In this document: positions 2,398 through 48,800 of the stretch, one piece after another | Position numbering within the stretch: position 1 is the first letter of the stretch | How the letters are laid out: each line of letters starts with the position of its first letter | Assembly: GCF_963675165.1 (NCBI RefSeq) | Contig: NC_087386.1 | Span: 2,234,169-2,298,168, forward strand | DNA from: Halichondria panicea | Taxonomy: Eukaryota > Porifera > Demospongiae > Suberitida > Halichondriidae | Direction: 5' to 3' | DNA: 64,000 nucleotides | Translations under genes and position numbers: made by a program | The notes under the pieces: generated by a model | What the model was told of the DNA's origin: nothing | Database searches by the model: none | What the model saw: the letters and a program-made list of their open reading frames with translations, nothing else

Positions 2398-2591
2398 TGA
2401 ACTGTCAATGTGATTTTGGAATCTGTGTTTATTTTATAAATTACAAATGAATAGGTATGTATTTCTATTGTCCAGTGAACGATTCTTACCAATTAATGCT
2501 GCAAGACTGCATGTTGCACTGGTCTCCTCAAAACCACGGCCACGCTTAGTCTCCATCTGTACCATTCTATAAAGTCTAAAGAGCTAGCAAG

Positions 2592-4179
2592 ATGTTGGAG
2601 GTGTTTCCTGGATTGCTGTTAGGCAGTGAGGGAGATGCCATGGCTGTGCTGGCTAGGACACCCTCCATCACCAAGCAGCACACTGTCACTCACATACTCA
2701 CCATCTCAAATGAGTCGCTGGACTTGAGCGAATCGAATGCTGTTCTAGTGGAGAGTGAAGGGCGTGCTGGTGTGGAGAGTGGAGTGGGTGATGGTGTGGA
2801 GAGTGAAGGGCGTGCTGGTGTGGAGGGTGCAGTGGGTGATGGTGTGGAAAGTGGAATGGGTGAGAGTGGAGTGGGTGATGGTGTGGAGAGTGGAGGGCGT
2901 GATGGTGTGGATGCTGGGGGTCATGATGGTGTGGAGAATGGAAGAAAGGACGATGTGGAGGGTGGAGCTGTGAAGGTTGCTAGTCCACCCAAGAAGATGT
3001 TGGTCAAGTTTGTGTGTTTAGCAGACATGCCAGAGAGTGACTTGCTGCATCATTTCCTACCCTCCTGCCAGTTCATTCAAGAGGGTTTAAGAACCGGAGG
3101 AACGGTCCTGGTACATTGGTAAGTAATGTGTATTGACGTACGTTGTAATGGTCCATCAATGTCATGTGATTTCACCCCCCTCCCTCAGTGTGTATGGGAT
3201 ATCTCGTAGTGTTACCATGGTGATAGCGTATCAAATGTGGAGCGAGCGGAGGTCACTCCAAGTGGTGTACGATGAACTAAAAAAGAAAAAACCAGAAATA
3301 AGGTAAGAATGTGTGCTACATGTATATGTAACTGGTGTTGATATTTCCTTTGCAGACCCAATCCTGGTTTTTTTGAGCAGCTCAAGTTATGGGAGGCCAT
3401 GAGATGTTGCTATGACACTAGTAATAAGCATTACAAAGCCTATCGCCTCAAGACAGTTGCCAGAGACATGAGAGGTATGCACATGTAACTAACTAGTCCT
3501 CTCAAACAACTCTGTTTTAATTGTGCTCGCAATCACAGATTCTGCTTATACTGAGAAGATTGGACTGTCTCCTGACCCTTCCACCAACACCATAGACTCC
3601 AGTGCTTACTACAGATGCAGAAAGTGTCGGTACGTTTGCATATTGCTAGCTGCACAAATCCAACGTGTACACCTCCATCACTATCCCCCCTCACACACAC
3701 AGCCGTCTCCTGTTCACTGACGAGAGTGTCCTCCCTCACGAGGTGGGTAAAGGAGAGGCTGCTTTCAAATGGTATAAGAGGACAAAGCAAGGGCAAACTC
3801 CACCCACTCAATCAGAGGTGGATTATAACGAGCAGGGGCCCACTCATGATGTGTGTAGTTCATGGTTCATCGAGCCAGTACAGTGGATGGAAAGCTCTCT
3901 ACTGGGCAAAGTGGAGGGGAAGGTGAGGCTGCTACTTGTGCATTAGCTAAAAATAGATACGTATCTTGAAAGCCTGTAATTTGTGTTCTGATTGTCCAAT
4001 TTCAAACTAATTGATGCATTCAAGAGCTCTCAGAATTACCTTTCCAATGGTGTGCTTAGATACATGTACTAGTTTTGTGATTAGTCAAAATTTTAACAAA
4101 GGCTATTATTATAGGCTTGCGTTATTTTCTAGAATTCAACTGTAGAATTTACTATACATTTTTCATACACACACACATA

Positions 4180-6077: not shown

Positions 6078-6944
6078 CAAACTCAATGAAGTGGTACGGT
6101 CGACTGGCCTTGTGTACATCGTTGCCATGTTGCTCACTGAAGTCTTTGTGTAGATTCTCGAGGTAGTTAAAGGCCAGCTTGGCAGGATAGGTGGGGTCAC
6201 ACAGGGCGAGGTAGCATATCCCCTCCTCAAGGATGTAGCTGTGTGGGGGGTCCATGTTAGTGTGTGTGCTTCAAGCTCAAAGTCATCGCCCCTCATCCAC
6301 CATTAAACTGGAGTATAATATCACCAACCAAGTTCCAACTATTCTTAGACTACATGTACACTGGTAGTTCCTTGTTAGACAATCACTATAGAGGGACCTA
6401 TGTATAACACACACCACTTACAATGTGTATGGTACAGTTAAGCAAATGCTCACAAACAAAAGGCCATCCATTGCATCAGTTTATACCATGACAGAGCACC
6501 AATCATCATACACACCACGAGGCAATAATGACATTCACAGGAGAGTGCTTACTGGAACACCATACAACCCGGGTCACACTCGATTGAGCATCGAGGGGGG
6601 CTGACTGACGACAGCTTGCGGAATATCTGCCTGGCCTTGGGTTGGTATTCAGCATAATCCCGGCCAGACTGCAGAGGGAGAATGCAACAATTCAGTTAAT
6701 TCAAGCTGTTAAAGATAGCACACACTACACACGTATTATTCTAGCAAGCTTCTCTTTATATGTCTACAGAATCATGACTTGACAACTATTCATGTCACTG
6801 AGCTGCATACAGTACAGTGTCCTGATGGGACCAATGCAGACTGTACTGTATTATCTACTGTAGCTCCTCTACCTCTTCATTGACAATGGATGTGGACAGA
6901 GGTAGTCCATCACTGGCTCTGGCAATTAGTGTCAGGTGGGCCAT
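6078..6944 (-). CDS. SEC22: SEC22 vesicle-trafficking protein, longin-domain exons only (copy A)
   Basis: Encodes the N-terminal longin domain of SEC22, the R-SNARE of ER-Golgi transport. Exons 6944-6873, 6668-6553 and 6238-6078 join in phase. The product starts [17 protein letters not shown] and continues [24 protein letters not shown] and then [27 protein letters not shown] and SRPYHFIEF, matching SEC22B closely from residue 1 to about 116. The last exon has a good donor (GTACGT), but no SNARE motif or transmembrane exon follows before SRD5A3-A starts at 5750. The copy is therefore truncated, or makes a longin-only protein if its 3' end lies in sequence I cannot recognise. All four array copies share this architecture, so the loss predates the amplification. 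It is divergent from RD1 across about 200 bp. Confidence 0.85.
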
Positions 6945-7151: not shown

Positions 7152-10100
7152 ATGGCTGAATCTACAACACTGAATGCTGCTAGGTTGATGGAGGATGGAC
7201 TCAAGGATTGGGAAAGGGTATGATATTCACATGATAGATAGATACTCAATGATCAGTGCATTCTCCTAGTGCCTAGATGTACTTGTTGACCACCCATAAA
7301 CACACTTGGCATCATTCATTCATCACAGTATAGTGCCTACACTCTACCCTGTCAGTGTGAGGTGTTTTATCTCATGTTGTTGTTCTCTCCACATGTACCA
7401 CTCTCTCTGGATGGACAACAGGGAGTGATTGAGGTACGTATTTAGTATGATCACATTCTACCAAGCTGACATGCTTGTGCTCTGAGCACTTGTTGTTAGG
7501 AGGTAGACAGTGTAAAGAAGAGCACATACGGATAACTGAATGTGATACTATTCCTTAATTGAGACAAGTAGATCTACTCGTAGTATAGCCTCCTTCACCG
7601 GCCTTCATAGAAAAGAAGGCCTGCTATCGACTGCTTGCGCATGCGCCAAATTATTGGATATTTTTTCCCGTAAAATTTCCTATAATACTGGATTCATCAG
7701 AGAAAATATCCTAAAAGTCATACACAGAGCTATATAGCTAGCTAGCTAGAGACAGAGCTGTGTATGTTTGTTGTACAGCTATTTTCCTTTGATAGAATCA
7801 GTAGCAGTAATAATTATAGTAGACTTTCACCAAAGTTAGTGTTAAATGGGCGTGGCCTGTCCATATAGGCTCTTGTCAGCTTTCACTCCGTTCAGATGAT
7901 CGTCATCCACACTGTTGCAGGCTGTGAGTCTTTTGTTAACATAGCAGGCTATATAAGGGTAGCTATCAGAGAATGCTATCAGATGGGCTAGAAACTCAAT
8001 CGAACTTTCTATCTACTTCCTTCAATCCACTTTCGTTCGTTGTGATGTCACAGTTTTACTGAGCCATATACGATGTTATCCAAAGCCCCCAGATACCGGG
8101 GGGATATTGGCGCATGCGCAAGCAGTCGATACCAGGCCCACTTCCCTAAGTGAAGTGGGAAGTGTGGCCTGGGATCGAGGCTACTCGTAGTAGTACCTGA
8201 AAGTATGCATGGTTAATCAAGTGTTTCAGTCTGCATGTTTGGCTGTCCACAATTGTTTCCCCTCCCCTGAGTCATGCAACAACACTGTACTGTATCACTG
8301 CACTAATGTTCTCTTCCTTCCATTTCATGCATCTCCACCTCACCTTTGACTGACCCTCTGAAACAACAGGCTGTAAGTTGGTGTGTGTTGTCAGAGTATT
8401 TAGTGTCTGTTGCATATTCTGTGATGTTTCTACTTCCCCATTATTACTCTTGTGTGTGTGCAGTGCCATAGTGTTATATAGGGAAGTATTTAGTATGATC
8501 ACATTCAACCTCGTAATCATTCATTTACTATCTTCCCACTGTTTGCCCTGTGGACTCTCCCTCTCTGGATCAACAGTATGTAAGTTGTGTTTGCACGTGC
8601 ACACTCATTTTAATGGTTACTAGGAACTCGTAAATTATCTTTGTCTCTTTCCGTATTGCCAACTTGGTATTAGCCGAGGCCCACACAACTTATTAGGTTG
8701 TAGTTTTAATATTCGTAGAATATACACCTAAGTTCATTAGTTGGTACGTACATTATCGTGTTTGTCTCTTCCCATGCACACACACTCATTCCTATGTTGG
8801 ACCACACACTGATTTGGACTACTGTAGGAGGTGAGCTTCTTACGAGTACTCAATGTCCACACACTAAAATGGTTCAGCTGCAATGTGTACGGATGTACTG
8901 GTTACCTAGCATCATTAGCGTGTGTCCCTTGTCCTCTAGAGCTGACCCTCTCCCTCGTATAGGGTAGACCACGGCTTTAAACTTGTTCAATTCGTAATCC
9001 CATTTTACGGGCACAAGTTCGAAATACCACCATTGTGTACATTGTGTACATGTAAATTTGTGTTTATGTAAATTCCCCAACCAATTAAGTGCCTACTGAA
9101 CCTAAAACTTGTTGCCTATTTCTCAATATTTCCCCAACTTTTTTATTTCTTAGATTTTCTATGCCAGGTCTAGCCACTTGTTGCTATGTGTAGTCAGTCC
9201 CATACACACCAGCGTTCAACTGATCTGATGTCTTGTATGTGTGTTAAGATTAAATCTCTCCCTCACATGTACCATTTGATGTGTCTCAGGATTGGATTAA
9301 GGTATGTTGTGATTGTGTGTGTGTCTCATGAAGTGCAGGTGTTGTATTGTACGACAAACAAAATCATACGTATCAAAGTTGTACATGTAAGATGCTTGTT
9401 GTACCGTTTACCGTCCCTTCCACTGACCCACCCACTAACCCTTCCATTATCTGCTATTGCTAGTACTGAGTACCTGTGTGTGTACTAGCCAGTGTGTGTA
9501 ATACCAGTGTTCATATCCCTCTCTCCTCACATGTACCCTCTGTGGACTGTTACTCAACAACAGCGCGTGAGTTTATTGCATGTACATATAATGGCGTACT
9601 AGGCTGACTTGTATACATGCACTACTGCATGAAGGCAGAAAGAATAACTTGCGTGACTTTATTTAGGATTAGTACGTACTGAAAGTTTCATGCTGTACAG
9701 ACGTGTACTTGCAATAATTGATGTATACATGTGTGAATGCATTCGTGTATTTGAACATGTTCATTTCTCTACATGTCCGTGTCCTACTGCTTGTTAATGT
9801 GACTACTGCTAATGATTACTGGAACAACAGTGGGTAAGTTACAGTATACAGACATGTATGAATGCACTCACTGCTCCTACCATCATCCCCCTCTCTCTGT
9901 TTCCATGTGTGTCTTACGCTGGTGTCTCATTGGACTAAACAGAAGGTGAGCGCGGGACACTGCACTGACTTGTGACTGTACTTGTGTCAGTAATGTTTGA
10001 GTTGCATGAGTACATGTGTATTGGCATTCATAGTGTACAGGTTTGTGATTATATTCTTTTCTCTCTCCCTACATTTCCATGCATGGTTACTGAATATCTG

Positions 10101-13100
10101 GAACGATAGGAAGTGAGTCAAACGATGTTAGCAAACATACCGTACACCTCATATGCATTCAGTTTGTAATAGTCTCATATCCTTACCTAACTCTAGTAGC
10201 TATACTGGTTGCACCTATAGACAACTCATAATGTGTGACCACAAACACACAGTCTAACCCACTCTTGTCTTGTTCACCTTGTCCAGGAGAAGGCTAAGTA
10301 TGAGAGTGAACTGAAGAGTTGTGAGACGGTGAGTGTTGATAGTTGCACTTACTACTCTCGTGGTAAGAGTGGTACACGTAGTCTAGCAGAACGACAATGT
10401 GTGTACATGTACTGTTCATTGTATGATGAATGGTTGCTTTTTGTCTACCTTTTTTTAGGTATGATTTGTAAGTCCACTTTTACTGTTTGTCTGTGTGAGG
10501 TTATACCGTATAGCGGGTAAATATATAATTATGCTCGCCAAGTTTATTTAGGTTGGTGGTTGCTGATTTTTATATTTTGATAATTTGTACATTTGTATCA
10601 GCTGCATGTTCTATTTGGTGGAATTTTTCTTCAGTCGTATATAAATTCTTTACTCCCCCAGAGAAGAGCTGCCCTCCAACAGAGACTGTCTGGTGACATC
10701 ACTGACCAGGACCGGAGACAACTGCAGGGAGAGCTGGTGGAGGTGGAGGGGAAGATCAAGAAGTGTGTCTCAGAGATACAAGAAGATGAGGAGAGTATAC
10801 ATGAAAATTATAAGAGGATTGCTAATATACGAGGACGAGGAGAGGAGAGACTGAGAAAGGAAGGTGAGGGGAGCAAGGAACTTTATAGTACAGTGAGTGT
10901 TGATGCTCATAGTTGCAATCACTCGTACCTATAGCAACTTACATGTAGTGTGTTATTAGTAGACTGTACCTACAGCTGTTGTGAGGTCCTCATACTTTAT
11001 ATAATCGTGTATTGCAAAAGCGTTTGCTCCACCCACAACATTTTCGTTCGCCTATCACATGTGTTGTGTTGCTAGGCAACTGCCCCTGATTGTGCACACT
11101 ACAGTGTACTAGAGCATTGTTCCTGTTACTACTCTACACACTGTGGTGGTATGGATATGGTTTATTGGAATACCAACTTTCAATGATTTGGGTTCGTGAC
11201 GTTGTACTGTGTTACTTAATTATGACAGCATCATGTTAATTCAAGCATAGCACACTCCTGTAGTGATCAGCCACATCATTATTACCCAGTACATGTATTC
11301 CCTGTCATTGGTGGGTCACCCACTTAGCAAGCTTTAAAGGTTTACGATTTAAAGGTGGTTTATGTCAGCTGCTTCATGTCCTTCATTTCCACTGGCACTT
11401 CATTGGCTTCTTACGTATACGCACAGCTGCTGTGTCCAGTTAGATCCATTTTAAAGCAGTTACTGTATATACCGCGAAATTTTCGAGGGGCTATATTTTC
11501 GCTGATTTCATGGGTTAGCAATCCACGAAAATTGTTCTAATTATCTGCTATAACATGCAAAGATTAAAGGCGTGGCTTCTGGTAAGCGGTCAACCCACAA
11601 ACAGTGCAACGAAATGCTTTAGAGGCCATTCCACGAAATATAAGTGCCTCGAAAATTTCGCACTATAAGGTATTATGTACATGTATATACCATACGTATG
11701 TAATCATGTTCTTATCAACTATTTGCTCCACCCACCACCTTTTTAAGCTTGCGTTGCTAGGCAACTGAATGTATTGTACAGTTTAGGCAGACTAGCAATC
11801 ATTTTATGAGCCCGAGGGCGAGTTGCATAAAACATGATGCTATTGTTATGTGTTTTATACCTCACCAAATTATGCTTTAAGGCGACGTGATCGGACTGTA
11901 TGACATTTATACGTACTTGTTGCCTTTATATTGTTTACATGTTTTCCAGACCTCAATGTAATGTTCATTCCATTGTTCATTCCCCCACCCACTCACAACC
12001 ACCATCCTTTTAGTTATGTATTTTGCTTCATATCCATTGGGTTGTGGGGCGTACCCTCTACTGTGCTTACTACATGTGTACTTAATAGTGACATCCATGA
12101 ATGCAAGCATAGCACATTCCTCATGTAATGATCGGTTTAATCACATGCATCATAATTATGGTGACATCATAATAATAGTCCATCTTGTCACCCAGCTCTG
12201 AAGTATTGCATAGTTAACATTCCTAACACCTCATACACACGTCTTGTTTAGAATCGAAGCGGTTGTTTAATGAGGCGATGAAGCACGGACACGTCTTGGT
12301 TAACATTGTCAACATGCTCATGTTTGGACCGGCGGGAACAGGGAAGACCAACCTCAAGTACCTGCTAACCGACAAGCCCCCTCTGCTACAGCGTGACAGC
12401 ACTCCTTGTATGGAAAAGCCAGTACGCATTCGACCCGTGTCCAACACAAAATTCAAGTCAACTGGAAGAGGCTGGGAAGAGATGTCTCAGCCAAAGCTGC
12501 GCAAGCTACTTGCTGAAATCATCACTAAGTTACCAAAAGAAAGCGCCGATCCATCCACCGTATCAAGGGTTGCCGAGAGCTTGAAGAAGATGACCACAAC
12601 CGAGCTAATTTCTGATTCCGATGAGCAAATTTCTGGTTCCAGTTCGAGCCCATTGAGGAGGATCGATTCCGATACACTTTCTGGCTCTGCAAGAAAGTTG
12701 AAGAAAGCCGTTGATGAAGTGATTGCGAGTGTAGTGAGTGGTGTGGCAGAAGAGCTGAAGCCAGCCACACAGGGAACTGACCAACTGTCGAGCAGTGACC
12801 AGCAAGAAGGAGAACTGTTTGATTCCAACTGGGTGTACGTTACCGACTGTGGCGGCCAGCCGCAATTCCACGACATCAGCCCTCTCTTCATCAAGCACAT
12901 TTCGGTGGCGTTGATAGTCCTGCGTTTGATTGACGAACTCTCCAGTTTCCCTTCTGACGAGTACTACAAGGATGGGCAGCTTGTTGGTAGTCCTCGTGCA
13001 TCTCACATGACCCTCGGGGAGACACTTCAGAGTCTCATTCGATCGATTGAGTCCCATACCTCACAAGACAAGAAGCCAAGTATGATCTTTGTGGGCACAT

Positions 13101-15913
13101 TCTTGGATCAACTGGATGAGAGCTCGGATACACTTATCAAGAGGAATCAAGAGATTCTCGACATGCTGCCACCCGATATCAAGAAGCTATTGGTGTACAA
13201 CGATTCTGGATTGAACAATCTTATTTTTGGTCTCAACACAATCAGCCGAGATGACGATTCACTGGCCACTGCCAATAGGATTAGAATTACTGTTGAGGAC
13301 TCTATTCCGCTACAAGTCAAAATGCCCATCTGGTGGTCCTTCTTGGATTCACTTCTCCAGAGTTTATCTGCCAGTCTCGAGCGAGGTGTATTAAGCATTG
13401 GAGAATGTCTCCAATTAGCCACTCGATTTGGTTATTTGCTCAAAGATCTTGAAGCTGCTCTGGTCTTCTTTGACAACGTGTGTATAGCACACTACTATCC
13501 CTCCATTCTCCCCAACACAGTGTTTGTGGATGCCCAGATTCCACTAGACAAGATCACCGAGCTCTCACAGCACGCCATCTTCCTGAGGAATGCTGAAGTC
13601 AAGTCACGCTCTACTCTAAGCACAGGAATGACCAAGGCCGAGTGGAAGAGATTTCGAGATGAGGGCATAGTCACTTTAGGGTTCCTTCGATTCTTTAAAA
13701 AGCATTACGTTGAAGGCATCTTTTCTCCAGAAGATATGCTGTTGATCATGAAAGATCTTCTCGTGATTGCTCCCATTCCACTAGTGGAGTCCACTACCCA
13801 CCAAGCCGAGTTCTTCATGCCATCTCTACTCACATCAATCCCACCTGCTGAGCTAGACAAGATTCGTTCCTCCTTCACAATATCACCCTTCGCTATCTAC
13901 TTTCGTAGTGGGTGTATTCGCTCTGGAGTATTTTGCTGTCTAGTTGTGGACGTGATCAAGAGGTTGGACTGGAAAGTTTTTCTCCCCTCAGGGAAACTAA
14001 TCTGTTTTGCTAAAAATTGTATCCAGCTAAGAATTCCCAAGCACCCGTTTACCGTGGCTCTGATCGACTCCTTCTCGTATATCGAAGTGTACATTGACGT
14101 CCCTTTTCCTTTACGCAATGAAATATGCCCTACGATTCGCAACGAAATTTTAAGCAGCATTAAATTGTCCTGTAAAGCGTTGCATTACAACAACGACACA
14201 CCCGAGACAGGCATCTTTTGCCCATGCAAGAAGAGCACTGGAAGCAAATTGCACCTTGCTGATCTGAGCGAACGGAAGGACTATTGGATATGCTCCCAGG
14301 AGGCACGTGTGTATGGTAAGCTCAGTGACGAACATAGAATCTGGCTGGACAATAGCGAAGGTTCAGGTGAGTATAATAATTATATAGTGTTCAGTAATAT
14401 TGACATTTATGTTTCTCTATGTTAGGTGAACCATCCTCTGTTACGAGAGATGTCACTGAAAGAACAAGTGATGAGCTGCAATACCCCGGTAATAACGTAA
14501 CAGTATATGTAAACATTTGCAGTTTTGGAACTTAACTAGCTAATACATAGTTACTTGATTAGCAGATTATCAAGTAAAATGTGTATCAAATAATTTAAAG
14601 AACGAGTGATCATCAGCCTTGTATGGTAATTGACAAACGTACTACATGAGTGTAACTGCTGTGTCTGCTTTTCCTCAGGTAATTCTGTAATGGAAGATGT
14701 GTGCTTGAAGACGGAAGTACATGTGCATGTTCATGATCAGCGAAATACTTCTAGTAAGCTTTGTTTTGCGTTTTTTGTTTTAATAAATTTTCCCTCCTCA
14801 GACCCTGCAATGGAACATGTGGTCAATAAAACGAGTGATCAACATACCAGTAAGAAAATGTCAATTGGTCAACAAGTTCTTTCGAGTTTGAAAGTTCAAT
14901 TTTTTTCCTGGGTCTAATAATAATGATTTACTTTTTTTTTCAGGTGAATTCTCCTCTGTTACAGTAATGGAAGACGTGTGTAAGAAGACTGGAGTGAGGG
15001 ACCAACAACTAGATCAAGAAATCCCTGAGAGTGACATCATTCTAATCGCGGAGAAATTTCCACACCTGCTGAGCGTGCACAAGGTGGGCAGTACTCTTAT
15101 TCATATACTGTACGTACTTACATAATACAATTATCATTTTTACATTTGGTAATTAGGGATTGAGCATATTGTTCACCTAATCCCTCAATTGTATATATTC
15201 CCTTTGAATTTCCTCTAGAAGGTATTTACAAGGGGAAACCCTCACCAAATGAAACCCTGGTTGATCGTTGGTTTTGTACAGGTTTTGACAATTGACGATC
15301 TGCAACATGTGTACGAGAAACTACACACTGCACATGAAAGTGCCAGCCCTCACTGGTTCAATCTGGGATTGGCTCTAGGTCTCCATCATTCTGTTCTTGC
15401 CATCATCAAGATCCAAAATCATGAAGAGTGTGTGTCTTGCTTGCGTGAAATGTTGGTTAAGCTCCTGAGTACACAACATGTAACATGGAGTCTCCTGTCA
15501 GACGCTCTCAAAAAGCCCACAGTGGATCTCATCAATTTGGCTGATAGCATCACAGGTAACTTTCAATGTTTGCGTATTTTTTTGATTAGCCTGGCTGCAT
15601 GTGGGTCATTTTTAGTGCTTGATATAGACTATCATTATCTTAGCTTTTTTCTTTGCATTCAGCCACAACTCCTAACCTGCTGAATCGACTCAACCTCACC
15701 CCAGCTGACCTTGGTGATGTAACTGATGTCACACGTTGTTATGGCAATCAAGCTGGAGTGGCTCATGCATTGGGAGCGTGGCAAAGTGTGAATCCTTCCA
15801 GAGCTACCTTCAGGGCCTTGGTAGAAATTGCCATAGGACTGAGAAGAGGAGACACTGCTACAGACATTTGTAGATTCATTGTAGAGAATACGAGTGGAAC
15901 TGACCGAAACTGA
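7152..15913 (+). CDS. RD1: Roc-like GTPase with N-terminal coiled coil and C-terminal death-fold domains
   Basis: My exon model joins 19 exons to 3321 nt (1106 residues) in frame: 7152-7217, 7422-7433, seven 3-nt exons and one more 12-nt exon up to 10112, then 10287-10328, 10662-10863, 12252-14366, 14426-14488, 14679-14753, 14802-14849, 14944-15083, 15282-15555 and 15663-15913. Order: amphipathic helix and coiled coil (about 15-118); GTPase with P-loop GPAGTGKTN (about 144-152), DCGGQPQF switch II (about 317) and GTFLDQ in the guanine-specificity position (about 398); a COR-like region; a Ser/Thr-rich linker; then two helical modules from about 933 and 1023. The CLREML...TWSLLSDAL pattern and the final ALVEIAIGL...DICRFIVEN are death-fold-like. 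No leucine-rich repeats or kinase were seen. Role as a cytoplasmic immune or cell-death adaptor is inferred from family resemblance. Confidence 0.85.
7422..10328 (+). other. RD1 microexon array: two 12-nt and seven 3-nt candidate exons
   Basis: Candidate exons in order: 7422-7433 (GVIE), 8370-8372 GCT (A), 8577-8579 TAT (Y), 8828-8830 GAG (E), 9290-9301 (DWIK), 9564-9566 CGC (R), 9831-9833 TGG (W), 9943-9945 AAG (K) and 10110-10112 GAA (E), followed by the 42-nt exon 10287-10328. Each follows a strong AG acceptor (mostly ACAACAG or AACAG) and precedes a GTAAGT or GTGAGN-like donor. All are phase 0. The spliced product keeps Trp, Val/Ile, Tyr and Trp at helix-repeat spacing between DWER of exon 1 and the KYESELK coiled coil. 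Exon status is predicted, not observed. Recursive-splicing sites are the main alternative. Confidence 0.7.
7586..8183. mobile_element. MITE, Mutator-like (9-bp target duplication), in RD1 intron
   Basis: About 600 bp bounded by TAGCCTC... and ...GAGGCTA, with subterminal inverted repeats around GCGCATGCG and flanked by CTCGTAGTA on both sides (7577-7585 and 8184-8192). RD2 has the uninterrupted CTCGTAGTA site with no insert, a natural empty site. The 9-bp duplication suits a Mutator-like transposase. No coding sequence inside. Confidence 0.8.
11463..11671. mobile_element. Short inverted-repeat element in RD1 intron 11
   Basis: The segment starts near ACCGCGAAATTTTCGAGG and ends near CCTCGAAAATTTCGCACT, giving imperfect terminal inverted repeats of about 18 bp. 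A diverged copy occupies the same position in RD3 (about 45140-45350). The rest of the long intron between 10864 and 12251 shows no further gene signal. Confidence 0.55.
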
Positions 15914-21567: not shown

Positions 21568-22438
21568 CAAACTCAATGAAGTGGTACGGTCGACTGGCCT
21601 TGTGTACATCGTTGCCATGTTGCTCACTGAAGTCTTTGTGTAGATTCTCGAGGTAGTTAAAGGCCAGCTTGGCAGGATAGGTGGGGTCACACAGGGGGAG
21701 GTAGCATATCCCCTCCTCAAGGATGTAGCTGTGTGGGGGGTCCATGTTAGTGTGTGTGCTTCAAGCTCAAAGCCACCGCCCCTCATCCACCATTAAACTG
21801 GAGTATAATATCACCAACCAACCAAGTTCCAACTATTCTTAGACTACATGTACACTGGTAGTTCCTTGTTAGACAATCACTATAGAGGGACCTATGTATA
21901 ACACACACCACTTACAATGTGTATGGTACAGTTAAGCAAATGCTCACAAACAAAAGGCCATCCATTGCATCAGTTTATACCATGACAGAGCACCAATCAT
22001 CATACACACCACGAGGCAATAATGACATTCACAGGAGAGTGCTTACTGGAACACCATACGATCCGGGTCACACTCGATTGAGCATCGAGGGGGGCTGACT
22101 GACGACAGCTTGCGGAATATCTGCTTGGCCTTGGGTTGGTATTCAGCATAATCCCGGCCAGACTGCAGAGGGAGAATGCAACAATTCAGTTAATTCAAGC
22201 TGTTAAAGATAGCACACACTACACACGTATTATTCTAGCAAGGTTCTCTTTATATGTCTACAGAATCATGACTTGACAACTATTCATGTCACTGAGCTGC
22301 ATACAGTACAGTGTCCTGATGGGACCAATGCAGACTGTACTGTATTATCTACTGTAGCTCCTCTACCTCTTCATTGACAATGGATGAGGACAGAGGTAGT
22401 CCATCACTGGCTCTGGCAATTAGTGTCAGGTGGGCCAT
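21568..22438 (-). CDS. SEC22: SEC22 longin-domain exons, copy B
   Basis: Exons 22438-22367, 22162-22047 and 21728-21568 keep the same phases, splice sites and open frame as copy A. Small changes include Ala to Pro in [10 protein letters not shown]. The SNARE motif and membrane anchor are again absent downstream, where SRD5A3-B begins. Whether it is expressed is unknown; the reading frame has no lesion. Confidence 0.8.
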
Positions 22439-22645: not shown

Positions 22646-24245
22646 ATGGCTGAATCTACAACACTGAATGCTGCTAGTTCCCCACAATTGATGGAGGATG
22701 GGCTCACTGATTATGATAGGGTATGATATTCACATGATAGATAGATACTCAATGATCAGTGTGCCTAGATGTACTTGTTGACCACCCATAAACACACTTG
22801 GCATCATTCATTCATCACAGTATAGTGCCTACACTCTACCCTGTCAGTGTGAGGTGTTTTATCTCATGTTGTTGTTCTCTCCACATGTACCACTCTCTCT
22901 GGATGGACAACAGTGGCACATTAAGGTACGTTGTGTGCAATCACATTCTACCAAACTGACATGCTTGTGCTCTGAGCACTTGTTGTTAGGAGGTAGACAG
23001 TGTAAAGAAGAGCACATACAGATAACTAAATGTGATACTATTCCCAAGTAAATCTACTCGTAGTAGTACTTGAAAGTATGCATGGTTAATCAAGTGTTTC
23101 AGTCTGCATGTTTGGCTGTCCACAATTGTTTCCCCTCCCCTGTGTCATGCAATCACCAGTGTACTGTATCACTGCACTAATGTTCTCTTCCTTCCATTTC
23201 ATGCATCTCCACCTCACCTTTGACTGACCCTCTGAAACAACAGACTGTAAGTTGGTGTGTGTTGTCAGAGTATTTAGTGTCTGTTGCATATTCTGTGATG
23301 TTTCTACTTACCCATTATTACTCTTGTGTGTGTGCAGTGCCATAGTGTTATACAGTAGAACCTCGATTATCCGGCCCTCCATTATCCGGAACCTCGATTA
23401 TCCGGCTTGGCAGTTTTCTCGTTATCAGATCAGAAAATGGGCGTGTCCCTCAAACGCACATGCGCGTTGCAGCTGTTACCATGGAGACATACCTGCTTAT
23501 CTTCTGCGCATGCGCAGACAACCATGTGGCACTGCTGTTTATCAATAAAGTGGGTGGATCAAGGCGTGGTTTATCTATTCGTTTATCCGGCATATTCACT
23601 TATCTGGCCTGCTTCTGGAACCAAGGTGTCCGGATAATCGAGGTTCTACTGTATAGGGAAATATTTAATATGATCACATTCAACCTCGTAATCATTCATT
23701 TACTATCTTCCCACGTGTTTGCCCTGTGGACTCTCCCTCTCTGGATCAACAGTGTGTAAGTTGTGTTTGCACGTGCACACTCATTTTAATGGTTACTAGG
23801 AACTCGTAAATTGTCTTTGTCTCTTTCCATATTGCCAACTTGGTATTAGCCGAGGCCCACACAAAAGTTATTAGGTTGTAGTTTTAATATTCGTAGAATA
23901 TACACCTAAGTTCATTAGTTGGTACGTACATTATCGTGTTTGTCTCTTCCCATGCACACACTCATTCCTATGTTGGACCACACACTGATTTGGACTATTG
24001 TAGGAGGTGAGCTTCTTACGAGTACTCAATGTCCACACACTAAAATGGTTCAGCTGCAATGTGTACGGATGTACTGGTTACCTAGCATCATTAGCGTGTG
24101 ACCCTTGTCCTCTAGAGCTGACCCTCTCCCTCGTATAGGGTAGAGCACGGCTTTAAACTTGTTCAATTCGTAATCCTTTTTTCGGGCACAAGTTCGAAAT
24201 ACTACCATTGTGTACATGTAAATTTGTAAATTAAGTGCCCTACTG
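22646..24245 (+). pseudogene. RD2: 5' fragment of a Roc-GTPase/death gene
   Basis: Contains exon 1 (22646-22720, MAESTTLNAASSPQLMEDG then LTDYDR), a 12-nt exon 22914-22925 (WHIK) and three 3-nt microexons: 23244-23246 ACT (T), 23753-23755 TGT (C) and 24004-24006 GAG (E). It then runs about 240 bp into the next intron and is replaced near 24245 by STOML2-like sequence. No GTPase or death domain follows, so a functional product is not expected unless spliced to downstream genes. It lacks the Mutator-like MITE found in the other three RD genes, so its intron shows the empty site. Confidence 0.85.
23353..23651. mobile_element. pogo/Tigger-type MITE in RD2 intron
   Basis: A 299-bp element with terminal inverted repeats CAGTAGAACCTCGATTATCC / ...ATAATCGAGGTTCTACTG, flanked by a TA target duplication. 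The orthologous introns in RD1, RD3 and RD4 read GTTATATAGGG with no insert. The termini resemble pogo/Tigger elements. Non-autonomous, with no transposase. Confidence 0.88.
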
Positions 24246-38809: not shown

Positions 38810-39686
38810 CAAACTCAATGAAGTGGTACGGTCGACTGGCCTTGTGTAGATCGTTGCCATGTTGCTCACTGAAGTCTTTGTGTAGATTCTCGAGGTAGTT
38901 AAAGGCCAGCTTGGCAGGATAGGTGGGATCACACAGGGCGAGGTAGCATATCCCTTCCTCAAGGATGTAGCTGTGTGGGGGGTCATGTTAGTGTGTGTGC
39001 TTCAAGCTCAAAGTCATCTCCCCTCATCCACCATTAAACTGGAGTATAATATCACCAACCAAGTTCCAACTATTCTTAGACTAGTCTTAGACTACATGTA
39101 CACTGGTAGTTCCTTGTTAGACAATCACTATAGAGGGACCTATGTATAACACACACCACTTACAATGTGTATGGTACAGTTAAGCAAATGCTCACAAACA
39201 AAAGGCCATCCATTGCATCAGTTTATACCATGACAGAGCACCAATCATCATACACACCACGAGGCAATAATGACATTCACAGGAGAGTGCTTACTGGAAC
39301 ACCATACGACCCGGGTCACACTCGATTGAGCATCGAGGGGGGCTGACTGACGACAGCTTGCGGAATATCTGCTTGGCCTTGGGTTGGTATTCAGCATAAT
39401 CCCGGCCAGACTGCAGAGGGAGAATGCAACAATTCAGTTAATTCAAGCTGTTAAAGATAGCACACACTACACACGTATTATTCTAGCAAGGTTCTCTTTA
39501 TATGTCTACAGAATCATGACTTGACAACTATTCATGTCACTGAGCTGCATACAGTACAGTGTCCTGATGGGACCAATGTAGACTGTACTGTATTATCTAC
39601 TGTAGCTCCTCTACCTCTTCATTGACAATGGATGCTGACAGAGGTAGTCCATCACTGGCTCTGGCAATTAGTGTCAGGTGGGCCAT
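38810..39686 (-). CDS. SEC22: SEC22 longin-domain exons, copy C
   Basis: The ATG is at 39686-39684 and exon 3 at 38970-38810, with exon 2 between in the same phases as copy A. The frame is open and encodes the longin fold only. Changes are conservative (for example NDVHK becomes NDLHK). The R-SNARE helix and anchor are again missing. A one-base loss just upstream of the exon 3 acceptor lies in the intron and does not alter coding. Confidence 0.8.
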
Positions 39687-39894: not shown

Positions 39895-42800
39895 ATGGCT
39901 GAATCTACAACACTGAATGCTGCTAGTTCCCCACAGTTGATGGAGGATTGGCTTGGCACTGATGGTCTCTATAATTGGGAGAGGGTATGATATTCACATG
40001 GTAGATAGATACTCAATGATCAGTGCATTCTCCTAGTGCCTAGATGTACTTGTTGACCACCCATAAACACACTTGGCATCATTCATTCATCACAGTATAG
40101 TGCCTACACTCTACCTTGTCAGTGTGAGGTGTTTTATCTCATGTTGTTGTTCTCTCCACATGTACCACTCTCTGGATGGACAACAGGGAAGGATTGAGGT
40201 ACGTATTTAGTATGATCACATTCTACCAAGCTGACATGCTTGTGCTCTGAGCACTTGTTGTTAGGAGGTAGACAGTGTAAAGAAGAGCACATACGGATAA
40301 CTGAATGTGATACTATTCCTTAATTGAGACAAGTAGATCTACTCGTAGTATAGCCTCCTTCACCGGCCTTCATAGAAAAGAAGGCCTGCTATCGACTGCT
40401 TGCGCATGCGCCAAATTATTGGATATTTTTTCCCGTAAAATTTCCTATAATACTGGATTCATCAGAGAAAATATCCTAAAAGTCATACACAGAGCTATAT
40501 AGCTAGCTAGCTAGAGACAGAGCTGTGTAGGTTTGTTGTACAGCTATTTTCTTTTGATAGAATCAGTAGCAGTAGTATAGTAGACTTTCACCAAAGTTAG
40601 TGTTAAATGGGCGTGGCCTGTCCATATAGGCTCTTGTCAGCTTTCACTCCGTTCAGACGATCGTCATCCACACTGTTGCAGGCTGTGAGTCTTTTGTTAA
40701 CATAGCAGGCTAAGGGTAGCTATCAGAGAATGCTATCAAATGGGCTCAATCGAACTTTCTATCTACTTCCTTCAATCCACTTTCGTTCGTTGTGATGTCA
40801 CAGTTTTACTGAGCATATACGATGTTATCCAAAACCCCCAGATACCGGGGGGATATTAGCGCATGCGCAAGCAGTCGATACCAGGCCCACTTCCCTAAGT
40901 GAAGTGGGAAGTGCGGCCTGGGATCGAGGCTACTCGTAGTAGTACCTGAAAGTATGCATGGTTAATCAAGTGTTTCAGTCTGCATGTTTGGCTGTCCACA
41001 ATTGTTTCCCCTCCCCTGTGTCATGCATCACCAGTGTACTGTATCACTGCACTAATGTTCTCTTCCTTCCATTTCATGTATCTCCACCTCACCTTTGACT
41101 GACCCTCTGAAACAACAGAATGTAAGTTGGTGGGTGTTGTCAGAGTATTTAGTGTCTGTTGCATATTCTGTGATGTTTCTACTTCCCCATTATTACTCTT
41201 GTGTGTGTGCAGTGCCATAGTGTTATATAGGGAAATATTTAGTATGATCACATTCAACCTCGTAATCATTCATTTACTATCTTCCCACGTGTTTGCCCTG
41301 TGGACTCTCCCTCTCTGGATCAATAGTTTGTAAGTTGTGTTTGCACATGCACACTCATTTTAATGGTTACTAGGAACTCGTAAATTGTCTTTGTCTCTTT
41401 CCATATTGCCAACTTGGTATTAGCCGAGGCCCACACAACTTATTAGGTTGTAGTTTTAATATTCGTAGAATATACACCTAAGTTCATTAGTTGGTACGTA
41501 CATTATCGTGTTTGTCTCTTCCCATGCACACACTCATTCCTATGTTGGACCACACACTGATTTGGACTACTGTAGGAGGTGAGCTTCTTACGAGTACTCA
41601 ATGTCCACACACTAAAATGGTTCAGCTGCAATGTGTGTGGATGTACTGGTTACCTAGCATCATTAGCGTGTGTCCCTTGTCCTCTAGAGCTGACCCTCTC
41701 CCTCGTATAGGGTAGACCACGGCTTTGAACTTGTTGAATTCGTAATCCCATTTACGGGCACAATTTCGAAATACCACCATTGTGTACATTGTGTACATGT
41801 AAATTTGTGTTTATGTAAATTCCCCAACCAATTAAGTGCCTACTGAACCTAAAACTTGTTGCCTATTTCTCAATGTTTCCCCAACTTTTTTATTTCTTAG
41901 CTTTTCTATGCCAGGTCTAGCCACTTGTTGCTATGTGTAGTCAGTCCCATACACACCAGCGTTCAACTGATCTGATGTCTTGTATGTGTATTAAGATTAA
42001 ATCTCTCCCTCACATGTACCATTTGACGTGTCTCAGTCTTGGATTAAGGTATGTTGTGATTGTGTGTGTCTTATGGAGTGCATGTGTTGTATTGTACGAC
42101 AAACAAAATCATACATATCAAAGTTGTACATGTAAGATGCTTTTGTTGTACCGTTTACCGTCCCTTCCACTGACCCACCCACTGACCCTTCCATTATCTG
42201 CTATTGCTAGTACTGAGTACCTGTGTGTGTACTAGCCAGTGTGTGTACTACCAGTGTTCATATCACTCTCTCCTCACATGTACCCTCTGTGGACTGTTAC
42301 TCAACAACAGCGCGTGAGTTTATTGCATGTACATATAATGGCGTACTAGGCTGACTTGTATACATGTACTACTGCATGAAGGCAGAAAGAATAACTTGCG
42401 TGACTTTATTTAGGATTAGTACGTACTGAAAGTTTCATGCTGTACAGACGTTAGACTGGCGGCGATAGAGCGACTGGCAAACTGCCTATCAGTCACTTGT
42501 CTCAGCTGAAGTGTAATAAATCGTATGACACTACTAAACATGAATATCGTTATAGATAATGTGGTTAAATTTTGCTACGAGATTCAGCTACTATGGAATG
42601 CACTGAATCCCCTGAAGTGTAAGTGCGGTTACAATTACAGGGCTAATATGATGTTGAGCAATCTGATAGGCTGCAATGCTCGTTGCAGCTGAGACGAGTG
42701 ACTGATAGGCAGTTTGCCAGTCCCTCGCGCTACGCACGCGAGGGGCTGTCGCCGCCAGTCTATACAGACGTGTACTTGCAATAATTGATGTATACATGTG

Positions 42801-45800
42801 TGAATGCATTCGTGTATTTGAACATGTTCATTTCTCTACATGTCCGTGTCCTACTGCTTGTTAATGTGACTACTGCTAATGATTACTGGAACAACAGAAT
42901 GTAAGTTACAGTATGCAGACATGTATGAATGCACTCACTGCTCCTACCATCATCCCCCTCTCTCTGTTTCCATGTGTGTCTCACGCTGGTGTCTCATTGG
43001 ACTAAACAGAAGGTGAGCGGGACACTGCACTGACTTGTGACTGTACTTGTGTCAGTAATGTTTGAGGTGCATGAGTACATGTGTATTGGCATTCATAGTG
43101 TACAGGTTTGTGATTATATTCTTTTCTCTCTCCCTACATTTCCATGGTTACTGAATATCTGGAACGATAGGAAGTGAGTTAAACAATGTTGGCAAACATA
43201 CCGTACACCTCATGTGTGTTCAGTTTGTAATAGTCTCATATCCTTACCTGACTCTAGTAGCTACACTGGTTGCTTCTATAGACAACTCATAATGTGTGAC
43301 CACAAACACACATTCTAACCCACTCTTGTTCACCTTGTCCAGGTTAAGGCTAGGTATGAGAGTAAACTGAAGAGTCATGAGACGGTGAGTGTTGACAGTT
43401 GCACTTACTACTCTCGTGGTAAGAGTGGTACACGTAGTCTAGCAGAACGACAATGTGTGTACATGTACTGTCCATTGTATGATGAATGTTTGCTTTTTGT
43501 CTACCTTTGTGTATGCTTTATATGTCCACTTTTACTGTTTGACTGTGTGAGGTTATACCGTATAGCGGGTAAATATAATAATTTTTATTATTATGATATT
43601 CTCGCCAAGGTTGGTGGTTGCTGATTTTGATAATTTGTACATTTGTATCAGCTGCATGTTCTATTTAGTGGAATGCTCATTCAGTCGTATATAAAGTTTA
43701 TAATAATATTTTTACTCCCCCAGAGAAGAGCTGCCCTCCAACAGAGACTGTCTGGTGACATCACTGACCAGGACCGGAGACAACTGCTGGGAGAGCTGGA
43801 GGAGGTGGAGGGGGAGATCAAGAAGTGGGTCTCAGAGATAGAAGCGTCTGAGAGGAATATACATCGCTATGAGAATGCTATTGCTGAGACACGAGGAGAA
43901 GGACAGGAGAGACAGAGAAGGAAAGGTGAGGGGAGCAAGGAACTTTATAGTACAGTGAGTGTTGATGCTCATAGTTGCAATCACTCGTACCTGTAGCAAC
44001 TTACATGTAGTGTGTTATTACAGGGGCGTAGCTACCATTGTTTCCTGGTTGCCCAGAAACCCCCCCAGGAGCTGCTGAGAAAATTGGGCAGGGCTCCCCA
44101 ATAATTGAAATCAAGCAGCCCTGCCCATCTTTTCATGCACGTGGCTGCAAATCATGTAGAGATAGCACCGTGAATCGTTTCACTTTGGCTAGCTTTGTCT
44201 CAGCTAGCTAGCTAGCTACCTCAAACAAAGAAGACCAAGACTTAAGTTCTAGTATCAATCCTGCATGCTCCAGTATTCTCAGACTCAGCTCTAAGCACAA
44301 CTTTATTCGATATTCAGGAAGGACAAGTTTAGAACAATCTCAGCCACATGAAACCTCTCAGGTAAATGTATTGGTGCTCAGCTAGACTAGCAATACACAA
44401 TTGACACCTGCCTTTTTGAATGTCTATAGCTAGCTAGACTAGCTAGTCTAGCTAGCTTCTCACAAACATGTAAAAAAAAGTCATTACAAACAATGAGCAG
44501 TAGGTGTAACCAGTAGGTGTGCCCCAATCAAGAGGGTGTGGCACCGGAAGTAGGCGTGGTTAAATTTCCCGGCGCTACCGCGCCGCTGGTTTTTCAAAAG
44601 GAAACCCCTATGTCAAAAGTCTGGCTACGCCCCTGTATTAGTAGACTGTACCTACAGCTGTTGTGAGGTCCTCATACTTTATATAATCGTGTATTGCAAA
44701 AGCGTTGGCTCCACCCAACATTTTCGTTCGCTTATCACATTTGTTGTGTTGCTAGGCAACTGCCCCTGATTGTGCACACTACAGTGTACTAGAGCATTGT
44801 TCCTGTTACTACTCTACACACTGTGGTGGTATGGATATGGTTTATTGGACTTTATTAATACTAACTTTCAATGATTTGGGTTCGTGACGTTGTACTGTGT
44901 TACTTAATCATGACATCATCATGTTAATTCAAGCATAGCACATTCCTGTAGTGATCAGCCACATCATTATTACCCAGTACATGTATTCCCTGTCATTGGT
45001 GGGTCACCCACTTAGCAAGCTTTAAAGGTTTACGATTTAAAGGTGGTTTATGTTCAGCTGCTTCATGTCCTTCATTTCCACTGACACTTCATTGGCTTCT
45101 TACGTATACGCACAGCTGCTGTGTCCAGTTAAAGCAGTTACCATGTATAGTGCGATATTTTCGAGGGGCTTAATTTTCGCTGATTTCATGGGTTAGCAAT
45201 CCACGAAAATTGTTCTAATTATCTGCTATAACATGCAAAGATTAAAGGCATGGCTTCCGGTAAGCGGTCAACCCACAAACATTGAGTGCAACGAAATGCT
45301 TTAGAGGTCATTAGAAATATAAGTTCCTTGAAAATGTCGCACTATAAGGTATTATGTACATGTACATGCAGTACCTATGTAGTCATGTTCTTATCAACTA
45401 TTTGCTCCACCCACCACCTTTTTAAGCTTGCGTAGGCAACTGACTGTATTGTACAGTTTAGGCAGACCAGCAATCATTTTATGACATGTACAAGCCCGAG
45501 AGCGAGTTGCATAAAACATGATGCTATTGTTATGTGTTTTATACCTCACCAAATTATGCTTTAAGGTGACGTGATCGGACTGTATGACTTTATACATACT
45601 TGTTGCCTTTATATTGTTTACATGTTTTCCAGACCTCAATGTAATTTTCATTCCCATTGTTCATTCCCCCACCCACTCACAACCACCATGCTTTTTATTT
45701 ACATTGATAATTATGTGTTTTGCTTCATATCCATTGGGTTGTGGGGCGTACCCTCTACTGTGCTTACTACATGTGTACTTAATAGTGACATCCATGAATG

Positions 45801-48800
45801 CAAGCATAGCACATTCCTGCATGTAATGATTGGTTTAATCACATGCATCATAATTATGGTGACATCATAATAATAGTCCATCTTGTCACCCAGCTCTGAA
45901 GTATTGCATAGTTAACATTCCTAACACCACATACACACGTCTTGTTTAGAATCGAAGCGGTTGTTTAATGAGGCGATGAAGCACGGACACGTCTTGGTTA
46001 ACATTGTCAACATGCTCATGTTTGGACCGGCGGGAACAGGGAAGACCAACCTCAAGTACCTGCTAACCGACAAGCCCCCTCTGCTACAGCGTGACAGCAC
46101 TCCTTGTATGGAAAAGCCAGTACGCATTCGACCCGTGTCCAACACAAAATTCAAGTCAACTGGAAGAGGCTGGGAAGAGATGTCTCAGCCAAAGCTGCGC
46201 AAGCTACTTGCTGAAATCATCACTAAGTTACCAAAAGAAAGCGCCGATCCATCCACCGTATCAAGGATTGCCGAGAGCTTGAAGAAGATGACCACAACCG
46301 AGCTAATTTCTGATTCCGATGAGCAAATTTCTGGTTCCAGTTCGAGCCCATTGAGGAGGATCGATTCCGATACACTTTCTGGCTCTGCAAGAAAGTTGAA
46401 GAAAGCCGTTGATGAAGTGATTGCGAGTGTAGTGAGTGGTGTGGCAGAAGAGCTGAAGCCAGCCACACAGGGAACTGACCAACTGTCGAGCAGTGACCAG
46501 CAAGAAGGAGAACTGTTTGATTCCAACTGGGTGTACGTTACCGACTGTGGCGGCCAGCCGCAATTCCACGACATCAGCCCTCTCTTCATCAAGCACATTT
46601 CGGTGGCGTTGATAGTCCTGCGTTTGATTGACGAACTCTCCAGTTTCCCTTCTGACGAGTACTACAAGGATGGGCAGCTTGTTGGTAGTCCTCGTGCATC
46701 TCACATGACCCTCGGGGAGACACTTCAGAGTCTCATTCGATCGATTGAGTCCCATACCTCACAAGACAAGAAGCCAAGTATGATCTTTGTGGGCACATTC
46801 TTGGATCAACTGGAGGAGAGCTCGGATACACTTATCAAGAGGAATCAAGAGATTCTCGACATGCTGCCACCCGATATCAAGAAGCTATTGGTGTACAACG
46901 ATCCTGGATTGAACAATCTTATTTTTGGTCTCAACACAATCAGCCGAGATGACAATTCACTGGCCACTGGCAATAGGATTAGAATTGCTGTTGAGGACTC
47001 TATTCCGCTACAAGTCAAAATGCCCATCTGGTGGTCCTTCTTGGATTCACTTCTCCAGAGTTTATCTGCCAGTCTCGAGCGAGGTGTATTAAGCATTGGA
47101 GAATGTCTCCAATTAGCCACTCGATTTGGTTATTTGCTCAAAGATCTTGAAGCTGCTCTGGTCTTCTTTGATAACGTGTGTATAGCGCACTACTATCCCT
47201 CCATTCTCCCCAACACAGTGTTTGTGGATGCCCAGATTCCACTAGACAAGATCACCGAGCTCTCACAGCACGCCATCTTCCTGAGGAATGCTGAAGTCAA
47301 GTCACGCTCTACTCTAAGCACAGGAATGACCAAGGCCGAGTGGAAGAGATTTCGAGATGAGGGCATAGTCACTTTAGGGTTCCTTCGATTCTTTAAAAAG
47401 CATTACGTTGAAGGCATCTTTTCTCCAGAAGATATGCTGTTGATCATGAAAGATCTTCTCGTGATTGCTCCCATTCCACTAGTGGAGTCCACTACCCACC
47501 AAGCCGAGTTCTTCATGCCATCTCTACTCACATCAATCCCACCTGCTGAGCTAGACAAGATTCGTTCCTCCTTCACAATATCTCCCTTCGCTATCTACTT
47601 TCGTAGTGGGTGTATTCGCTCTGGAGTATTTTGCTGTCTAGTTGTGGACGTGATCAAGAGGTTGGACTGGAAAGTTTTTCTCCCCTCAGGGAAACTAATC
47701 TGTTTTGCTAAAAATTGTATCCAGCTAAGAATTCCCAAGCACCCGTATACCGTGGCTCTGATCGACTCCTTCTCGTATATCGAAGTGTACATTGACGTCC
47801 CTTTTCCTTTACGCAATGAAATATGCCCTACGATTCGCAACGAAATTTTAAGCAGCATTAAATTGTCCTGTAACGCGTTGCATTACAACAACGACACACC
47901 CGAGACAGGCATCTTTTGCCCATGCAAGAAGAGCACTGGAAGCAAATTGCACCTTGCTGATCTGAGCGAACGGATGGACTATTGGATATGCTCCCAGGAG
48001 GCACGTGTGTATGGGAAGCTCAGTGACGAACATAGAATCTGGCTGGACAATAGCGAAGGTTCAGGTGAGTATAATAATTATATAGTGTTCAGTAATATTG
48101 ACATTTATGTTTCCCTATGTTAGGTGAACCATCCTCTGTTACGAGAGATGTCACTGAAAGAACGAGTGATCAGCTGCAATACCCCGGTAAATACGTAACA
48201 GTATATGTAAACATTTGCAGTTCTATTAGTTTTAGAACTTAACTAGCTAGTACATAGTTACTTGATTAGCAGAGTATTTGTTAAAGTTAAGTAAAATGTG
48301 TATCAAATAATTTAAAGAACGAGTGATCAACAGCCTTGTATGGTAATTGACAAACGTACTACATTAGCGTAACTGCTGTGTCTGCTTTTCCTCAGGTAAT
48401 TCTGTAATGGAAGATGTGTGCTTGAAGACGGAAGTACATGATCATGATCAGCGAAATACTTCTAGTAAGCTTTGTTTTGCGTTTTTTTGTTTTATAAATT
48501 TCCCCTCCTCAGACCCTGCAATGGAACATGTGGTCAATAAAACAAGTGATCAACATACCAGTGAGAAAATGTCAATTGGTCAACAATTTATTTCGAGTTT
48601 GAAAGTTAAATTTTTTTCCTGGGCCTAATAATAATTTATTTTTTTACATATATCTTTTCTTCAGATGAATTGTCCTCTGTTACAGTAATGGAAGATGTGT
48701 GCAAGGAGACTGGAGTGAGGGACCAACAACTAGATCAAGAAATCCCTGAGAGTGACATCATTCTAATCGCGGAGAAATTTCCACACCTGCTGAGCGTGCA

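Follow-up and report, generated by a model that had tools for sequence, protein, structure and literature searches.

The subject of this report is a gene of the demosponge Halichondria panicea which carries, between its first exon and an exon of 42 nucleotides, a serial array of seven exons of a single codon each, and judging from the sequence these exons are very probably real. The gene starts at position 7152 of a 64,000-nucleotide stretch of forward-strand DNA (NCBI RefSeq assembly GCF_963675165.1, contig NC_087386.1, positions 2,234,169 to 2,298,168), which we call the window and from whose first letter all positions are counted, and it belongs to a family of about 40 paralogs on two contigs, C10 and C13. 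Our reading as a whole, which we hold to be quite probable, is that the single-codon exons are constitutively included in the messages of a Roco-type family, that they contribute to a hypervariable helical hairpin placed before a GTPase, and that this hairpin would bind ligands while its variable codons are reassorted among the paralogs.

An earlier note on this DNA had proposed seven single-codon sites, two 12-nt exons and the 42-nt exon, and all of them are borne out at the positions below, with AG and GT borders intact and in phase 0. Every exon of the array has a length divisible by three, and the layout is that of two blocks of 12+3+3+3 nt followed by one extra codon and the 42-nt exon. 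The frame joined from exon 1 through the large GTPase exon amounts to 2470 nt and 823 amino acids, and the nine microexons, a term for exons of 30 nt or less, supply 15 codons (45 nt) of this protein of more than 820 codons. In the following list, letters a to g are positions in the heptad repeat of the predicted helix, which we call helix A, and the counts refer to the gene copies described thereafter.

7152 to 7217, plus strand: exon 1, starting at ATG and ending DWER, donor GTATGA; its final codons vary among copies; aligned in 17 sequences.
7422 to 7433, plus strand: 12-nt exon encoding GVIE at heptad positions f, g, a and b; first two codons hypervariable; I in 32/32 counted; found in 34/42 sequences.
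7583 to 8180, no strand assigned: insertion resembling a miniature inverted-repeat transposable element (MITE), within an intron; contains a decoy AG-GCT-GT at 7921-7923.
8370 to 8372, plus strand: exon A, a single codon (GCT) at heptad position c; hypervariable, with 14 different residues among 38 copies.
8577 to 8579, plus strand: exon Y, a single codon (TAT) at heptad position d; hypervariable, with 10 different residues among 39 copies.
8828 to 8830, plus strand: single-codon exon E1 (GAG), heptad e; near-fixed, GAG 35/38 and AAG 3/38.
9290 to 9301, plus strand: 12-nt exon encoding DWIK at heptad positions f, g, a and b; first two codons hypervariable; I in 34/35.
9564 to 9566, plus strand: exon R, a single codon (CGC) at heptad position c; hypervariable, with 11 different residues among 35 copies.
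9831 to 9833, plus strand: exon W, a single codon (TGG) at heptad position d; hypervariable, with 11 different residues among 34 copies.
9943 to 9945, plus strand: single-codon exon K (AAG), heptad e; fixed, 34/34.
10110 to 10112, plus strand: single-codon exon E2 (GAA), heptad f; restricted to E/R/K/N among 34 copies.
10287 to 10328, plus strand: 42-nt exon, EKAKYESELKSCET; extends helix A; variability highest at residues 1, 4 and 5.
10662 to 10863, plus strand: 202-nt ordinary exon; end of helix A, loop SGDITDQD, and helix B with hypervariable heptad positions of its own.
12252 to 14366, plus strand: large exon with P-loop GPAGTGKT; Roc-COR (Roco/LRRK2-like) GTPase, as judged by the predicted fold of a relative, P0074.
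15282 to 15554, plus strand: downstream exon without a Pfam match above cut-off, which may be Death-like.

The family was assembled from at least 45 pieces matching the large GTPase exon and at least 81 matching the array region, both lower bounds scored from the best 40 candidates, and all of them lie on C10 and C13 among the matches listed. For comparison we used 42 copy sequences, namely 39 fetched regions and three cut from the window, some of which stop short of certain sites; L009-L028 are the next 20 ranked by the GTPase exon after the window's own copies, while L029-L047 were selected for a matching array and trimmed close to it, and therefore do not reach exon 1 and often do not reach the insertion. 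Within these 42 the first 12-nt exon, W, K and E2 are each found 34 times, the second 12-nt exon and R 35 times, A and E1 38 times and Y 39 times, and among the 21 long sequences picked by their GTPase exon the array sites occur in 17 to 19. AG and GT are both present in 319 of 321 site-copies as aligned, or 320 of 321 once a one-base misalignment in L012 is put right, the remaining exception being the truncated copy L046, and the donors of the single-codon sites read GTRAG in 247 of 252 site-copies. W, K and E2 are absent from L011 and L021.

The motif itself is strikingly concentrated. Between 7434 and 10112 the pattern YAG-NNN-GTRAGY occurs seven times on the plus strand (six of the seven sites plus the decoy at 7921) and never on the minus strand; site 10110 also fits but the pattern there extends beyond the region, and it is hence uncounted. 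Three hundred dinucleotide shuffles of the same region gave a mean of 0.11 matches and a maximum of one, and across the window all 25 plus-strand matches fall within the four gene copies that it holds, with four matches on the minus strand. Genome-wide, the stricter CAACAG-NNN-GTRAGT was found 212 times vs 36 for the reversed pattern, and among the matches listed 28 are scattered on C1-C9 and the rest are on C10. Chance matching is ruled out by the shuffles together with the conservation among paralogs. The decoy, GCT at 7921-7923, is a different matter: it sits within the MITE-like insertion of about 600 nt (arms at 7608-7649 and 8107-8148), is present in only 8 of 19 long array-bearing copies and is GCT in all ten sequences aligned there, and on these grounds we rejected it as an eighth single-codon exon.

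What a single sequence could not reveal, and what the earlier note missed for that reason, is the variation of these codons between paralogs. The single-codon exons A, Y, R and W are hypervariable, as are codons 1 and 2 of each 12-nt exon, and of the eight most variable residues in the two blocks four stand alone on 3-nt exons and four are paired on 12-nt exons. In an alignment of the array that takes in 33 of the 42 sequences, nucleotide diversity (pi) is 0.56-0.76 at the twelve hypervariable columns vs an intron mean of 0.038, and just 4 of 2053 intron columns exceed 0.55; the first 12-nt exon, which lies outside this alignment, has a pi of 0.68-0.76 at bases 1 and 2. Codon differences between copies are nonsynonymous with few exceptions (nonsynonymous to synonymous 642:0, 663:3, 540:7 and 477:0), with no stops. 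The codon counts omit exons of deviating length, which at the first 12-nt exon means 2 of 34 (L011, with a 24-nt insertion, and the misaligned L012), and their flanks are ungapped, so that indels push up the values for the right-hand flanks (as high as 0.187 at R). Even where two copies have identical 45-nt flanks on both sides the codon between them usually differs at the hypervariable sites, in 182/211 such pairs at A, 19/29 at Y, 74/80 at R, 44/51 at W, 153/154 at the first 12-nt exon and 10/10 at the second; the corresponding figures are 11/23 at E2, 2/107 at E1 and 0/88 at K. Coding exons under diversifying selection would account for the borders, the hypervariability and the nonsynonymous excess together, and this is the only explanation we found that does.

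The geometry of the encoded helix fits the same picture. Full inclusion of the seven codons sets the conserved isoleucines at a distance of seven residues, and the leucine in the 42-nt exon follows 14 residues later; of the 128 possible patterns of inclusion and skipping, this one alone keeps these three landmarks in heptad register. Variability by heptad position is 0.04 at a, 0.37 at b, 0.87 at c, 0.84 at d, 0.05 at e, 0.65 at f and 0.82 at g, which places a, e and a mostly E/K b on one side of the helix and the variable c, d, f and g on the other; the observed helical moment was reached by none of 20,000 permutations at 100 degrees and by 3 of 20,000 at 102.9 degrees. The claim of the earlier note that an amphipathic helix is put together codon by codon has thus held up well, through splice-site conservation, codon variation and the analysis of the helix face. 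Helix B of the 202-nt exon, for which the statistics come from 15 of 19 copies, has invariant I90, E94, I97, I104 and A105 and varies at the same heptad positions (0 of 20,000 permutations). Helices differ in all 25 complete copies, with a mean identity of 0.10 over the eight variable residues. Of helix A, P0074 contains only the end, and in the structure model of this protein helices at 2-36 and 41-104 form a hairpin, with a predicted local distance difference test score (pLDDT) of 87-94 in blocks over residues 11-70 and 64-78 over 71-110; its first eleven residues are intron read as coding and are not to be trusted.

Further downstream, the translation of the large exon contains GPAGTGKT and DCGGQPQF, and the predicted fold of P0074 is that of a GTPase with Roc and COR in tandem, Roc-COR being its best fold matches. 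Towards the C terminus the pLDDT of the model is below 50 for the most part. By sequence the GTPase has nothing better than weak matches to Rab (E values of 0.23 and above), and neither Pfam nor NCBIfam yields a match for it above cut-off. As regards the NLR class (NACHT or NB-ARC plus LRR), Pfam gave no match above cut-off across the 823 amino acids. It is the predicted fold that points to a Roc-COR, LRRK2-like GTPase in this region. We envisage that constitutive inclusion of the array exons would set helix A in heptad register, that helix A would pair with helix B in a hairpin presenting a hypervariable surface ahead of the GTPase, that this surface may bind variable ligands, whether microbial or of a self/non-self kind, and that Roc-COR would relay the signal. 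A recognition role for the hypervariable helix seems to us reasonably likely.

How the diversity is shuffled can be approached through linkage disequilibrium, for which we used 21 copies on C10 and 10 on C13. On C10 single-nucleotide polymorphisms of the introns that lie within 10 bp of each other have an r2 of 0.61; at 60-120 bp it is down to 0.17, and past 500 bp it is 0.04-0.07 (0.052 when shuffled). On C13 it declines from 0.37 to background. When A, Y, R and W are taken two at a time (six pairs), the number of copy pairs with both codons in common is 5 to 9 vs 3.7 to 6.6 expected, and the observed value is attained in 91 to 297 of the 500 shuffles. Since linkage decays with distance and these combinations are no commoner than in shuffles, single codons look nearly free to reassort between paralogs. 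Gene conversion and recombination might then exchange the variable codons almost one by one, which near-identical introns spacing the codons would make possible, while diversifying selection keeps the codons different; that this is the reason for the single-codon architecture we suggest only tentatively. At the Y site TGG goes with a changed donor, gttagt, in 5/5 copies (L019, L037, L040, L041 and L045) on both contigs, a codon-plus-donor haplotype.

We have considered several other readings, two of which concern the exons as such. It could be argued that the sites are recurrent AG-NNN-GT motifs and not exons at all, their variability having some other cause, and the look-alike at 7921, a decoy in a transposon-like insertion, is a fair warning in this respect; the codon-structured nonsynonymous variation, the conserved AG and GT and the continuity of the heptads into the 42-nt and 202-nt exons nevertheless make this extremely unlikely. 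The earlier note had suggested that the array would allow single residues to be included or skipped without loss of frame; if this were its purpose, isoforms would gain or lose residues and rotate the face of the helix. Array exons that are all in phase 0 and multiples of three would allow this, and some copies (W4, L011 and L042 among them) lack blocks of array exons and yet stay in frame. The heptad register, on the other hand, survives full inclusion only, and the near-invariant strong donors suggest constitutive use; moreover, the variation on which we rely lies between gene copies, and none of it speaks for a choice in splicing. Alternative splicing as the purpose is thus unsupported and, in our judgement, improbable.

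The other two readings accept the exons and differ over what makes them vary, or what the variation is for. A targeted mutator, akin to a diversity-generating retroelement or to hypermutation, might rewrite bases 1 and 2 of the codons in place of selection on ordinary mutations. The variation is indeed limited to a few bases between identical flanks, and of the third bases in the 146 codons of the A, Y, R and W exons 127 are T or C, 19 are G and none is A, a bias resembling the AAY-to-NNY pattern of retroelement mutagenesis. A codon model with selection only (omega 40, neutral divergence 0.02-0.03) nonetheless gives a similar picture, with pi at 0.65-0.71 for bases 1 and 2 and 0.11-0.26 for base 3 when started from GCT, ACT or CGC, and 0.42-0.49 for base 3 from AAT, so that the base-3 values span most of the observed 0.05-0.50, although the model expects 2-13% of codons to end in A where none do. 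Codon 1 of the first 12-nt exon, besides, varies at base 3 as well (0.63). Adenine mutagenesis of the retroelement type, as stated, is ruled out, because AAG at K never changes (34/34) and ATT in the two 12-nt exons is kept in 32/32 and 33/35, and a targeted mutator of any kind strikes us as very improbable. More serious is the idea that exons and hypervariability are real but that the helix is a pairing code among the family's own proteins, insulating some 40 paralogs by homotypic coiled coils, and not a receptor for an outside ligand. Roc-COR proteins dimerise, and the heptad pattern, the near-fixed a and e and the 25 distinct helices in 25 complete copies all suit such a code. Its variable face, however, takes in the classical outward positions c and f, beyond the core pair, and the low identity at the eight variable residues resembles recognition diversity more than a matched code; we consider it unlikely.

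Several observations weigh against the reading that we prefer, namely constitutive single-codon exons feeding a ligand-binding hairpin, and they deserve to be set out together. Helix B is hypervariable and is nevertheless encoded by one ordinary exon, and single-codon exons are therefore unnecessary for hypervariability. Two of the 20 top-ranked relatives (L017 and L022) have no recognisable array, and a Pfam search of the 823-aa part gives no known domain above cut-off, LRR and kinase included. Linkage on C10 shows a secondary rise, to an r2 of 0.27 at 250-500 bp; the first 12-nt exon and A are associated (4 vs 0.37 expected, above all 500 shuffles); and the nine site pairs that involve a 12-nt exon have little power because their shuffled expectation is 0.40 or less. 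Of the 120 RefSeq proteins listed 24 lie on C10 or C13, and none of these begins at exon 1 or covers the array; P0074 alone carries a residue of a single-codon exon, and there it is preceded by intron read as coding.

The annotation needs a word of its own. One protein search gave 69 matches whose N termini are all unspliced genomic frames, another, with the large exon, gave 239, none of which starts at exon 1 among the 120 listed, and a third returned five proteins, all already found by the others. Four models (P0074, P0099, P0100 and P0101) do carry the predicted junction between the 42-nt exon, present in full or in part, and the 202-nt exon, and in P0074, which comes from L011, a copy without W, K and E2, the R codon ATT is joined at a GTGAGT donor to the 42-nt exon across 169 nt. 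Truncated protein models would follow naturally if read mappers were unable to place 3-nt exons; STAR is described as mis-mapping reads across an unannotated 1-nt exon, and GTRAGT donors as conserved at 1-nt exons (PMC8831610).

The window also holds three further copies of the gene:

22646 to 24232, plus strand: truncated gene copy, exon 1 through E1; later array exons unmatched.
39895 to 46188, plus strand: further gene copy (L009), with the full array and the start of the GTPase exon.
58715 to 63999, plus strand: further gene copy without the E1, DWIK and R exons, frame intact; its GTPase exon leaves the window.

The truncated copy has counterparts in L044, L045 and L046, which likewise run from exon 1 (or from the first 12-nt exon, as far as fetched) to E1, with no later piece among the nearby matches listed; such copies might serve as gene-conversion donors or be no more than debris. 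Local rearrangements occur too: at 3528-3563 of L011 the first 12-nt exon has a 24-nt in-frame insertion repeating acceptor and exon, giving a 36-nt exon or two acceptors to choose from, and a local duplication in L013 leaves two single-codon E exons (3814 and 4086) in one gene. A simple tandem-duplication origin for all the exon units was not shown, since only one intron pair is strikingly alike (z 11, over a 25-nt stretch; other pairs z 4.8 or less). No relatives were found in a viral contig collection, and 129 pattern matches in another collection of genome contigs included none. Some 0.9 kb upstream of exon 1 in 4/4 copies lies, on the minus strand, an exon with a Longin domain, which we take to be Sec22-like (6079-6237, 21569-21727, 38811-38969 and 57649-57807); being present beside each copy, it is part of the duplicated unit, and it may have a promoter region in common with the gene. 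An open frame at 2580-3122 (plus strand), with degenerate repeats of the GVESGVGDGVE type and no Pfam match, has what we presume to be a phosphatase-like start.

Isolated 3-nt exons, hypervariable receptor families and Roco GTPases are each known separately, and what would be new, if we are right, is their combination as an organisation of recognition diversity in an early animal lineage. We can imagine a germline repertoire of about 40 Roco receptors in which introns act as recombination spacers and paralogs swap single recognition residues as cassettes, in effect exon shuffling with a single amino acid as its unit, a possibility that for us falls somewhat short of probable. The family would also be a natural test bed for how the spliceosome handles serial 3-nt exons, and a clean case for separating gene conversion, selection and intron placement base by base. 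It is a reminder, finally, that annotation can miss N termini of this kind, as the C10 and C13 models illustrate.

Among known systems, the top-ranked open-licence literature yielded no gene with hypervariable residues on single-codon exons of their own, and in the accessible part of a paper on sponge NLRs that used the H. panicea genome the family goes unmentioned, while the words exon, coiled, hypervariable and GTPase are absent from the paper (PMC12909245). One parallel in exon size is the isolated 3-nt micro-Ex8 of Drosophila homothorax, whose internal exons are bordered by CAG and by GTGAGT or GTAAGT, as several sites are here; micro-Ex8 is, however, single, conserved and alternatively spliced, whereas here seven such exons stand in series and four are hypervariable between paralogs (PMC7392893). 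In the micro-exon genes of schistosomes short exons of 3-81 bp likewise follow one another, and these genes form a multigene family whose products are diverse; they encode secreted proteins, whereas in the sponge the nine microexons supply 15 codons of a GTPase protein of more than 820 amino acids that varies by single codons between paralogs (PMC10526429). Roco proteins such as LRRK2 and bacterial Roco share the Roc GTPase and COR, here by predicted fold, and differ in that the sponge protein has an N-terminal hypervariable helical hairpin and, by Pfam, neither LRR nor kinase in its 823 amino acids. Micro-exon genes are defined by microexons forming most of the coding sequence, and 15 codons of more than 820 fall well outside that definition. 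In the targets of diversity-generating retroelements, too, codons vary at bases 1 and 2 within a constant context, a likeness that goes no further than the pattern, for here there is no adenine rule and the copies are eukaryotic paralogs. The HNWD NLRs het-d and het-e of Podospora offer a further parallel, with near-identical units that differ at a few hypervariable codons, in their case repeats in concerted evolution with diversifying selection on a binding surface; those are WD40 repeats within one gene for a NACHT receptor, while the sponge family spreads a helical hairpin over microexons in about 40 paralogs of a Roc-COR GTPase (PMC12222747).

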